From the NCBI GenBank assembly GCA_019694595.1, contig JAIBBQ010000046.1, positions 1-36,547 of the forward strand: a stretch of DNA of 36,547 nucleotides, in the 5' to 3' direction. Source of the DNA: Myxococcaceae bacterium. GTDB taxonomy: Bacteria; Myxococcota; Myxococcia; Myxococcales; Myxococcaceae. Below the pieces are notes generated by a model, which ran no database searches, had not been told where the DNA came from, and saw only the letters and a list, made by a program, of their open reading frames with translations. Shown piece after piece: positions 29,179 to 33,278 of the stretch; within the stretch, counting starts at the first letter, position 1, and the number at the start of each line of letters is the position of its first letter. The position numbers and the translations under genes are program-made.

Positions 29179-29583
29179 ATGACCGCGCGCACCGAAGCCC
29201 TCTGCACCGCCGCCGCCTCCGTGGGCCTGGCCGCGGGCTACGCGCTGGTGCCGCTGCTCCACCCGCCGATGTTCTGGCTCGACCCGGTCGAGCTCACCTG
29301 GAGCCTGGGCGCGGCGCCTGGCCCGCTGGCGATGGGCTACTTCGCGCGCGCCGCCTACGGGCTCTCGGCAGCGCTCCTGCTCGCCGGCCTCGCTCGCCTC
29401 GCCGCCGGACTGCGAGCGCCGCGCCGGGTGCTGACGAGCGCGGGCGCGGTGGCCGCGGTGCTGGCGCTCGCCGCGTCGCTCGCCTTCGAGGCCAGCCGGG
29501 TCGGGGCCTTCACCTTCTCCATCTCACCGGGCGCCGTCGCGGCCCGCGCGGTCGCCGTTTCACCCACCGAGGAGACGCCATGA
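29179..29583 (+). CDS. Small membrane protein coupled to the GH99/phosphatase lipoprotein
   Basis: The 134-residue product has about three membrane helices (~8-27, ~47-73 and ~86-103) and a polar C terminus. A GGGAG ribosome-binding site lies about ten bases before the ATG. The TGA overlaps the next gene's ATG (ATGA at 29580-29583), so the two are translationally coupled and may work together, for instance in export or anchoring of the large lipoprotein. That role is inferred. The family is not recognised. Confidence 0.7.
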   Translation: MTARTEALCTAAASVGLAAGYALVPLLHPPMFWLDPVELTWSLGAAPGPLAMGYFARAAYGLSAALLLAGLARLAAGLRAPRRVLTSAGAVAAVLALAASLAFEASRVGAFTFSISPGAVAARAVAVSPTEETP

Positions 29584-32500
29584 AGCGCACGCTCGACGCC
29601 CAGGCCCTGATGCTGGTGCTGCTCCTGGCCGGCTGCACCCAGCCCGGCATCATCGAGGAGCTCCCCGACGACTCCGCGCTCCCGCCCGACGAGGTGGCGG
29701 ACCCCACGAGCTACGGCCAGGCCATCGCCGCGGCGAGCACCCTGCTGGTGCCGACCGTCGACGTGGCGCGCAGCCACGTGGTGGGCATCACCGACGACGG
29801 CACGCTCTTCCGCAACGTCGACGACGGCACCGCCTTCTCGATGACCGACGACTCGACCTCCTACGTGCGCGGTGAGGCGGGCGTCGCGCTCGCGTCCCAC
29901 ACCGTGGGCTTCAGCGGCGCGCCCGCGGGGACGGTCACCCAGGTCACCGTGTCGTACCGCGCCAACCGCGGCTCGGCGCACGGCACGGTGCAGGCGCGCC
30001 TCTACGACGGCGACACGCTCATCGGCACCGGCAAGGTGAACACCGCCGGCTCCTGGACCAGCTACTACGACACCTTCACCGGCCTGAAGGTCGCCGACGC
30101 CAACGCGCTGCGCGTGGAGCTGGCGCTCAACAACACCGCCAAGCGTGGCGCGCTCCGCTACAGCCAGGTGTTCGCGGGCATCGCCGTGGCGCGCACCGAC
30201 GTCACGCCGCCGCAGGCCGCGGTCATCGCGCCGGTGGCGGGCACCGCCTTCACCTCCGAGCAGGACGTCACCCTCCTCGCCTCGGCCTCCGACGACGTGG
30301 GCGTGGCGCAGGTCGCCTTCGAGCTCGACGGCGCGCCGCTGGCGAGCGCGGTGCTCGGCGCGCAGGGCTGGGCGCTCACCTACCACGCGAGCGCGACCGC
30401 CAACGGCAAGCACGGCCTGGTCGCCGTGGCCCGCGACGCCGCGGGGAACGTGGGCCGCTCGGTTTCGGTGGACTTCAGCATCGCCATCGGCACCACGCCG
30501 CCGCCGCCGCCTCCTCCGCCCGGCGATCCGACGCTGCCGCTGCGCGCGACCTTCTATTACCCGTGGTTCCCCGAGACCTGGGGCGGCACGCCCAGCCCCT
30601 TCACGCACTACCACCCGACGAGCGGCTTCTACCGGTCGGATGACCCGGCCATCATCCAGAAGCACCTCGACGCGATGGTGTACGGCAACATCAAGGCCGC
30701 CTTCTCGTCGTGGTGGGGCCAGGGCCACTACACCGACGCGCGCTTCGCGCAGCTGCTCGCCGCCACCGGCACCCGCGATTTCCACTGGGCGCTCTATTAC
30801 GAGAAGGAGAGCACCGGGAACCCGACGGTCGCCGAGCTGCAGTCGGACCTCAACGCCATCAAGACCAAGTACGGCAGCGACCCGCACATGCTGCGGATCA
30901 ACGGCAAGCCGGTGGTCTTCGTCTTCGCCGACGCCACCGACGCCTGCGGCATGGCCGACCGCTGGAAGCAGGCCAACACCATGGGCATGTACATCGGCCT
31001 CAAGGTCTTCACCGGCTACGCCGCCTGCGCGAGCCAGCCCGACGCGTGGCACCAGTACGCCCCGGCCGGCGCGGACCACGACTTCTCGCCCGACTCCTAC
31101 AACGTGAGCCCCGGCTTCTTCCTCGCCTCGGAAGCGACCCCGCGGCTGGTGCGCGACCCGGTGCGCTTCGCGAACAGCGTGAAGGCGATGATGGCGTCGA
31201 ACGCCAAGTGGCAGCTCGTCACCAGCTTCAACGAGTGGGGTGAAGGCACCGCGGTGGAGAGCGCTACCGAGTGGAGCTCGCCGTCGGGCTTCGGCGTGTA
31301 CCTCGACGTGCTGCACGTGAACGGAGGCGCCACCCCGCCCCCGCCGCCGGTGAACACCCCGCCCACCGTCAGCGCGGGCGCGGACCAGACGCTCGCCTCC
31401 GCCGTCACCGTCACCCTGCAGGGCACCGCGAGCGACGCCGACGGCGACGCGCTCACCGCGACCTGGAAGCAGACCGCGGGCCCCACCGTCACCCTGAGCT
31501 CCGCGAGCGCGCTCAAGCCGACCTTCACCGCGCCCACCGTCACCACCGCCACCACGCTCGTCTTCACCCTGAGCGTCACCGACGGCAAGGCCACCACCAC
31601 CGACTCGGCGAGCGTCACCGTGCTGGCGCCGGCGGTGAACCACCCGCCCACCGTGTCCGCGGTGGCGCCGCCCAACGCGGCGAGCAGCGCACTGGTGACG
31701 CTCGACGGCAGCGCCTCCAGCGACCCCGACGGCGACTCCCTCACCTTCGCCTGGACGCAGCAGAGCGGCCCCGCGGTGACGCTGGCGGGCGCGAGTTCCG
31801 CCAAGGCGAGCTTCACCACGCCGGCCGTCACCGCCGACACCGCGCTCTCCTTCAAGTTGACGGTCACCGACGCCAAGGGCGCCAGCGCCTCGTCGATGGT
31901 CTCGCTCACCGTGGTGGCGCCGACCGCCAACCGCGCGCCGGTCGCCAACGCCGGCGCGGACCACGCGGCGGCCTCTGGCGCGGCGGCGAGCCTCGACGGC
32001 AGCGCCTCGTCGGACCCCGACGGCGACCCGCTCACCTACGTCTGGAAGCAGACCGGCGGCACCGCGGTGACGCTGTCCAGCACCAGCGCGGCGAAGCCGA
32101 CCTTCACCGCGCCCACCGTCACCGCGGCGACCGCGCTCACCTTCTCGCTGGTGGTGACCGACGCCAAGGGTCTCGCCTCCGCGGCGGACGCGGTGGTGGT
32201 CACCGTGAATCCCCCGTCCACCGTCACCGCCAAGTTCACCAAGGCGGTGTCGCTCCACGCGGTGACCCGCTCGAGCATCGTGGTCTTCTTCATGACCGAC
32301 GTCGCGGTGGCGGCGACCGTGAACTACGGCGTCTCCTCGACGGGCGAGCAGTCGGTGACCGAGCCTTCGCCGGTGACCCGCCACGTGGTGACGCTCTCGG
32401 GCATGACCGCCAACACCCCGTACCAGTACGCGGTGAGCGCGGGCGGCTCGACGGCGGCGGGCACCTTCACCACCGCCATCGACGGCGCCGCGGGCACGCA

Positions 32501-33278
32501 GCCCTTCACCTTCGCGGTGGCGGGTGACGCCCGCGGGCACGCCGCGTGGGCCACCGTGGCCAAGTCCATCGCCGCCAAGAAGCCGCGCTTCCTCATCCAG
32601 ACGGGCGACAACAACGACGCCAGCGGCTCGGCGACCAACTGGGAGGACTACTACAACGTCGCCAAGGACTTCTTCGCCAACGTCCCGGTCTTCGCCGCGC
32701 AGGGCAACCACGACACCGGCTCCAACTTCACCACCTACAACGTGGCGCCGCAGTCCTCGTCGGGCTCGTCCATCTATTACGCCTTCGTCTACGGCAACGC
32801 GGGCTTCGTGGCGGTGAACACCAACGCCCTCGACTCCACCCAGACCAGCTGGGTGAAGAACGCGATGACCGCGATGTCCGGCGGACCGATGTTCGCCTTC
32901 CACCACCACCCGCTCTACTCCTGCGGCTCCCACGGCAGCGACAGCGGCCTGCAGAGCACCTTCAAGGCGTCCTTCGAGGCGGCGAAGCTCACCACCGACT
33001 TCACCGGCCACGACCACGACCTCGTCTACTGGAGCGCGCTCAACGGCGTGCGCTACGTGGTGTCGGGCGGCGGCGGCACCGGGCTCTACGCGCTGTCGGG
33101 CTGTCAGGGGCCGTTCGCCAAGTCGAGCTACGGCTTCATGCTGGTGACGGTGAACGGTGCCACCATCACCCAGACCTTCTACGACCAGAACGGCGTGCAG
33201 CTCTTCGCCGACGCGCCCTTCCAGGCCGCGGGGCCCACGGTGCCGCTGAGCAGCCTGGGCAGCCTCGTCGTCCGGTAG
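29580..33278 (+). CDS. Two-enzyme lipoprotein: GH99-like glycosidase, three PKD-like domains, metallophosphatase
   Basis: The 1232-residue product has a lipobox L-A-G-C (Cys19). Domains in order: a beta-sandwich (~50-205), a bacterial Ig-like domain (~205-305) and a Pro-rich linker. A GH99/GH71-like barrel (~325-581) comes next, with F-Y-Y-P-W-F and F-N-E-W-G-E-G-T, placing Glu552 and Glu555 three apart as in the known GH99 active site. Three PKD/K319-like domains (~592-880) are followed by an FN3-like purple-phosphatase N domain (~882-975) and a calcineurin-like metallophosphatase (~978-1190). The last shows G-D-A-R-G (Asp983), G-D-N-N-D (Asp1010), G-N-H-D (1042-1045), H-H-H-P (1108-1111) and G-H-D-H-D (1143-1147). 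It is likely a surface enzyme removing phosphate and cleaving alpha-mannan-like glycans; the substrate is inferred. Confidence 0.88.
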   Translation: MKRTLDAQALMLVLLLAGCTQPGIIEELPDDSALPPDEVADPTSYGQAIAAASTLLVPTVDVARSHVVGITDDGTLFRNVDDGTAFSMTDDSTSYVRGEAGVALASHTVGFSGAPAGTVTQVTVSYRANRGSAHGTVQARLYDGDTLIGTGKVNTAGSWTSYYDTFTGLKVADANALRVELALNNTAKRGALRYSQVFAGIAVARTDVTPPQAAVIAPVAGTAFTSEQDVTLLASASDDVGVAQVAFELDGAPLASAVLGAQGWALTYHASATANGKHGLVAVARDAAGNVGRSVSVDFSIAIGTTPPPPPPPPGDPTLPLRATFYYPWFPETWGGTPSPFTHYHPTSGFYRSDDPAIIQKHLDAMVYGNIKAAFSSWWGQGHYTDARFAQLLAATGTRDFHWALYYEKESTGNPTVAELQSDLNAIKTKYGSDPHMLRINGKPVVFVFADATDACGMADRWKQANTMGMYIGLKVFTGYAACASQPDAWHQYAPAGADHDFSPDSYNVSPGFFLASEATPRLVRDPVRFANSVKAMMASNAKWQLVTSFNEWGEGTAVESATEWSSPSGFGVYLDVLHVNGGATPPPPPVNTPPTVSAGADQTLASAVTVTLQGTASDADGDALTATWKQTAGPTVTLSSASALKPTFTAPTVTTATTLVFTLSVTDGKATTTDSASVTVLAPAVNHPPTVSAVAPPNAASSALVTLDGSASSDPDGDSLTFAWTQQSGPAVTLAGASSAKASFTTPAVTADTALSFKLTVTDAKGASASSMVSLTVVAPTANRAPVANAGADHAAASGAAASLDGSASSDPDGDPLTYVWKQTGGTAVTLSSTSAAKPTFTAPTVTAATALTFSLVVTDAKGLASAADAVVVTVNPPSTVTAKFTKAVSLHAVTRSSIVVFFMTDVAVAATVNYGVSSTGEQSVTEPSPVTRHVVTLSGMTANTPYQYAVSAGGSTAAGTFTTAIDGAAGTQPFTFAVAGDARGHAAWATVAKSIAAKKPRFLIQTGDNNDASGSATNWEDYYNVAKDFFANVPVFAAQGNHDTGSNFTTYNVAPQSSSGSSIYYAFVYGNAGFVAVNTNALDSTQTSWVKNAMTAMSGGPMFAFHHHPLYSCGSHGSDSGLQSTFKASFEAAKLTTDFTGHDHDLVYWSALNGVRYVVSGGGGTGLYALSGCQGPFAKSSYGFMLVTVNGATITQTFYDQNGVQLFADAPFQAAGPTVPLSSLGSLVVR

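Follow-up and report, generated by a model that had tools for sequence, protein, structure and literature searches.

Cleavage by the characterized enzymes of glycoside hydrolase family GH99 is aided by the substrate's own 2-hydroxyl. GH99 enzymes of Bacteroides digest yeast mannan; the EWxE motif corresponds to E404 and E407 in human MANEA, a tryptophan (W126 in the Bacteroides xylanisolvens enzyme BxGH99, W189 in MANEA) goes with mannose at subsite -2, and GH71 has DYGE in place of EWxE (PMC11025385). On the phosphatase side, ACP5, a relative of the purple acid phosphatases (PAPs), reportedly has a part in the removal of mannose-6-phosphate (PMC6714136).

Here we describe a gene that brings these two kinds of enzyme together in a single predicted lipoprotein, located in a 36,547-nucleotide stretch of DNA from a Myxococcaceae bacterium (GenBank assembly GCA_019694595.1, contig JAIBBQ010000046.1, positions 1 to 36,547 of the forward strand), referred to below as the window. 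Both parts are of known kinds, and the literature searched yielded no description of the repeated pairing between a GH99-like subfamily and two unrelated phosphatases: no paper was found there that pairs GH99 with a metallophosphoesterase or calcineurin-like phosphoesterase, and GH99 is present among viral auxiliary genes only as two bare list entries. With a probability of about 0.6, we consider the window protein to be a paired enzyme for phosphate-bearing alpha-glycans, belonging to a GH99-like subfamily whose barrels have repeatedly become joined to phosphatases of one or the other of two unrelated folds. The glycan probably contains mannose.

Identity of the barrel and the phosphatase domain

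The GH99 family model PF16317 matches the window protein in two stretches, which together score 53.8 bits (cut-off 33). An AlphaFold2 model of the barrel, built with 83 aligned relatives, has a predicted local distance difference test score (pLDDT) of 93 and a predicted template modeling score (pTM) of 0.90. When this model is compared with known structures using Foldseek and VIA-align, GH99 enzymes rank first (Z 27-28, 2.5-2.9 Å, about 268 of 281 residues), followed by a glycoside-hydrolase-like protein (23), GH71 (about 19) and other barrels (17 or lower). GH71 or WbsX as the family of the barrel is ruled out by these fold scores together with weak or absent family matches. In the alignment to solved structures (chain numbering), the counterparts of E552, E555 and W379 in the B. 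xylanisolvens enzyme are E333, E336 and W126, respectively, and by the published criterion the conserved W379 predicts mannose at subsite -2 (PMC11025385). Across 99 related barrels, E408 is conserved in 95, E552 in 91, E555 in 92 and W379 in 87, and the subfamily shares the sequence signature FYYPWFPExW. The third GH99 motif has changed, with YYEKE in place of H[I/L]EPY, and for this reason the group is best named a GH99-like subfamily.

Two more GH99-like lipoproteins are encoded in the window genome (G000 C152:739-1689, locus L136, and C244, L137:2514-4397). The catalytic pair has been lost in both, which read NDFVA and NDWGT at this site, and a homologue in another genome (G018) reads NNWPA. 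Losses of this kind in the same genome would fit a barrel that serves as a non-catalytic glycan binder or is a relic, with the phosphatase alone being of importance, but the EWxE pair is kept in the window copy and in more than 90 of the 99 relatives, and we consider this explanation very improbable.

The phosphatase domain matches PF00149 with 32.3 bits (cut-off 21.5), and its nearest solved relatives by sequence are mammalian purple acid phosphatases, with rat PAP at an E-value of 2.6e-10. Its structural model is modest (pLDDT 60) because the alignment behind it is thin; PAP is again the nearest match in Foldseek (4e-15). Six metal ligands are kept in the motifs GDAR (D983), GD (D1010), GNHD (N1043), HHH (H1109) and GHDH (H1144, H1146). 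The color-giving tyrosine ligand that marks a purple acid phosphatase proper is replaced by D1013 in the alignment to solved structures, and we file the domain as PAP-like only.

The initial annotation had proposed a GH99-like barrel with candidate catalytic glutamates at 552 and 555, three PKD-like spacers and a metallophosphatase with nearly complete metal motifs in one lipoprotein, and had named a barrel outside GH99/GH71 as one result that would speak against it. The Pfam domains and the lipobox agree with that architecture, the model places the barrel with GH99, the dyad is present and aligns with that of the characterized enzyme, and the metal motifs are kept with the exception of the PAP tyrosine. 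Beyond that description, a Big_7 domain and a region of about residues 45-205 stand ahead of the barrel, and an FN3-like domain resembling the PAP N-terminal domain stands ahead of the phosphatase.

Recurrence of the pairing in bacteria and phages

To avoid selecting for fusions, an even draw of 301 Chloroflexota-type genomes was searched with the barrel alone. Among the 17 barrels found, six are fused to a phosphatase and seven more have one within about 1.5 kb (13/17), whereas none of 60 GH18/GH5 control loci from the same phylum, assessed with the same profiles, has a phosphatase fused or adjacent, and no phosphatase domain was found by Pfam in the control proteins themselves (0/60). After clustering at 60% identity, a phosphatase is fused or adjacent in 7 of 8 barrels and 0 of 40 controls (Fisher p 1.1e-7), and the difference persists when only fusions are counted (4 of 8; Fisher p 3.6e-4).

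This comparison bears on general scavenging of carbon and phosphorus, in which the two domains would act on separate substrates and be joined for co-expression and shared anchoring in a low-phosphate setting. Both phosphatase types come from families capable of broad specificity, many fusions include CBM96 or Ig-like modules, and the phage copies described below would fit auxiliary nutrient genes. However, the lack of phosphatases at the loci of two other secreted glycosidase families in the same phylum indicates that the pairing is specific to the barrel, which makes scavenging an unlikely explanation.

When 84,980 species genomes and IMG/VR were scanned with the alignment of the barrel, 79 loci were identified in the genomes and 12 in viral sequences. 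Pfam matches among 83 barrel proteins include GH99 in 81, PF00149 in 19, PF04185 in 9 and CBM96 in 19. In a second census, which used more sensitive local profiles and had duplicates removed, 35 of 89 barrels with known ends are fused to a phosphatase, 22 of the calcineurin type (PF00149) and 13 of the PF04185 type, the latter being N-terminal in three proteins and C-terminal in ten. A single ancestral fusion is excluded because two unrelated partners occur, at either end of the barrel. The barrel tree requires at least 15 changes of fusion state for the calcineurin type and at least 11 for the PF04185 type, and approximately unbiased (AU) tests reject a single clade for all calcineurin-type fusions (p-AU 1.8e-79) and for all PF04185 fusions (p-AU 1.6e-5), with gain being indistinguishable from loss in both the change counts and the one-origin tests. 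The near relatives L020 and L046 bear different phosphatase folds (Shimodaira-Hasegawa-like approximate likelihood ratio test, SH-aLRT, 93). PF00149 is also the commonest Pfam family among the immediate neighbors of bacterial barrels (9 of 110).

The glycosidase-phosphatase pairing had been viewed in the initial annotation as meaningful and the architecture as singular. Recurrence with two unrelated folds, set against 0 of 60 control glycosidases, strengthens the first view; the second has to be given up, since the domain-architecture census places the fusion in phages as well as in several groups of bacteria. That the subfamily was joined convergently to two unrelated phosphatases hints strongly, at the genomic level, that its glycan probably bears phosphate, and this offers a directly testable substrate class for widespread uncharacterized enzymes.

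Both forms occur on tailed-phage contigs. Viral contigs carry calcineurin-type fusions (L015, L016/L099, L101 and L108) as well as PF04185-type fusions (L098, L103 and L105), and a PF04185 gene adjoins the barrel gene on viral contigs L018/L107 and L100. Genes next to the phage barrels include those for the major head protein, portal and terminase. The phage evidence consists of IMG/VR contigs, as no barrel match was found in 50,697 named-phage records. Some phage copies have a leader peptide, one has a lipobox and some have neither. The GH99-like and PF04185 protein at L098:7575-9767 carries the lipobox LAAC, and a phage surface lipoprotein would be unusual; the barrels of L017, L018 and L100 begin right at the domain with no leader, and a PF04185 gene lies beside those of L018 and L100. 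Matches to plasmids are limited to three records, including one from Streptomyces at 45% identity. That phages have the same enzyme pair raises the question of why they carry it.

Proposed action and candidate substrates

In the mechanism that we propose, the GH99-type barrel would use the E552/E555 pair for internal cleavage of an alpha-linked glycan that probably contains mannose. The PAP-like domain would strip phosphate from this same glycan material, and would thereby either clear the chain for the barrel or free phosphate from the cut pieces, with the PKD repeats acting as spacers holding the barrel and the phosphatase on the lipid-anchored protein. By analogy, ACP5 may serve as a precedent for a PAP relative acting in phosphate removal from mannose-6-phosphate. 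We infer both activities and their common target from genomic evidence; a shared phosphate-bearing glycan is suggested because the GH99-like subfamily has been joined repeatedly to either of two unrelated phosphatase folds.

A number of observations weigh against this proposal. The activity of every member of the barrel subfamily is a prediction; the third motif of the barrel keeps the glutamate (E408) and neither the histidine nor the proline, and an aspartate occupies the PAP tyrosine position. Secreted proteins commonly include a phosphatase partner, and the two domains could each contribute to nutrient scavenging with no shared substrate. The barrel tree has many weak branches, and a distant actinobacterial branch (Micromonospora and others, rows L077-L089) has no fused phosphatase, so the phosphatase association belongs to part of the barrel family. 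Finally, the phosphatase domains of other aligned fusions share only 20-28% identity with that of the window protein, and the window fusion may therefore have a separate history.

The paired enzyme could act on phosphomannan of fungi or on a phosphoglycan of bacteria, and for the family as a whole we lean to the latter because GH92 and GH76 are absent from other carriers and because phages have copies. In the window's phylum, only 3 of 195 genomes have the barrel at an E-value of 1e-15, the window genome included, and with such rarity it was probably acquired in the window lineage. The window genome has one GH76, an endo-alpha-1,6-mannanase-type protein (G000 C2:42985-43971, in a 731-amino-acid frame).

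Predatory attack on yeast or fungal phosphomannan, as proposed in the initial annotation, would be the fungal-target version. It agrees with the mannose predicted by W379 at subsite -2 and with the digestion of yeast mannan by Bacteroides GH99 enzymes (PMC11025385), and the GH76 adds to it. Yet GH92, the yeast-mannan partner, is absent from the window genome, no mannan-utilization genes were recognized among the window neighbors scanned, and phages share the architecture, as do bacteria that have neither GH92 nor GH76; we judge this version to be improbable. A universal yeast-mannan program for barrel carriers is unsupported, with both GH92 and GH76 absent from 12 Chloroflexota-type genomes that have the same barrel and GH92 absent from the window genome.

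The bacterial-target version is remodeling of phosphate-bearing surface glycans, whether the cell's own, those of a competitor or those of a phage host, and phage versions would then modify the envelope of the host or function during entry or release. The tailed-phage copies, which lie near head genes and include one predicted lipoprotein and some leaderless proteins, are consistent with it, as are the glycosyltransferase family 2 and GtrA-type genes that recur next to bacterial barrel copies and the lack of GH92 and GH76 in the 12 Chloroflexota-type barrel genomes. However, the analysis identified neither a receptor nor a target in the envelope, and the GH76 of the window genome would fit alpha-mannan degradation; we propose this version tentatively.

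More broadly, the fusions may represent a new class of two-enzyme phosphoglycan degraders, in which a GH99-like barrel was repeatedly and independently joined to a phosphatase of either of two unrelated folds, in several bacterial phyla and tailed phages, and which act on an alpha-mannan-like phosphate-bearing polymer, a proposal to which we give slightly less than even odds. The paired-enzyme reading points to undescribed phosphoglycans in Chloroflexota-type and actinobacterial groups, and such proteins are possible tools for dephosphorylating and trimming phosphomannans.

Locus features and comparison with known enzymes

The lipoprotein gene has an ATG start at 29580 and 1232 codons, with a G+C fraction at third codon positions (GC3) of 0.94, and a ribosome-site-like GAGGAG lies just upstream at 29569-29574. 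On inspection, the N-terminus has the hydrophobic leader MLVLLLAGC and the invariant cysteine of bacterial lipoproteins, C19. The product is probably a lipid-anchored two-enzyme protein, for which we infer a surface-exposed location. A small predicted membrane protein is encoded at window positions 29179-29583, and the overlap of its stop with the lipoprotein start (ATGA) suggests translational coupling. Other neighbors in the window, a murein endopeptidase with LysM, an FHA sigma-54 activator and a kinase, give no hint of the substrate.

Table 1. Features of the lipoprotein gene in window coordinates (aa, amino acids)
Feature	Position	Strand	Basis
GH99-like / PKD / PAP-like phosphatase lipoprotein, 1232 aa	29580..33278	+	single unbroken frame, Pfam domains
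Predicted lipoprotein signal peptide, lipobox LAGC with C19	29580..29636	+	read from sequence
N-terminal region, aa 45-205	29712..30194	+	without Pfam match
Big_7 bacterial Ig-like domain, aa 211-280	30210..30419	+	PF17957, 39.3 bits vs cut-off 24.1
GH99-like (beta/alpha)8 catalytic barrel, aa 316-585	30525..31334	+	PF16317 above cut-off, AlphaFold2 model, VIA-align Z
W379, equivalent of BxGH99 W126 / MANEA W189	30714..30716	+	alignment to PDB structures; mannose at subsite -2
E408, third GH99 motif glutamate, YYEKE here vs H[I/L]EPY	30801..30803	+	alignment of relatives
Catalytic dyad E552-W-G-E555	31233..31244	+	alignment to PDB structures; conserved in relatives
Three PKD-type repeats (spacers)	31350..32219	+	PF22352, three stretches, E 4.9e-41
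FN3-like domain resembling PAP N-terminal domain	32247..32474	+	PF16656, E 6.5e-4, below its cut-off
PAP-like metallophosphatase domain	32487..33275	+	PF00149, rat PAP match, Foldseek PAP

In comparison with the GH99 enzymes BxGH99, BtGH99 and human MANEA, the window barrel has the same fold (Z 27-28, about 2.5 Å over 268 residues), the EWxE dyad, the -2 tryptophan and the motif-3 glutamate, but it is about 20% identical, has a core of 263 positions against 341 in the Pfam model, reads YYEKE and not H[I/L]EPY at motif 3, and is fused to a phosphatase. GH71 alpha-1,3-glucanases and WbsX-type proteins have a related barrel, with a weak WbsX match in some relatives, yet GH71 is structurally further away (Z about 19) and carries DYGE where the barrel has EWxE (PMC11025385). 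The purple acid phosphatases (TRAP/ACP5 and plant PAP) are nearest to the phosphatase domain by sequence and fold and likewise have an FN3-like domain in front; the window domain differs in having D1013 for the tyrosine and GDAR for GDxG, and in being part of a multidomain lipoprotein. PF04185 phosphoesterases such as AcpA and phospholipase C are unrelated to its calcineurin-type domain and occur in 13 relatives as fusions with the same barrel subfamily.

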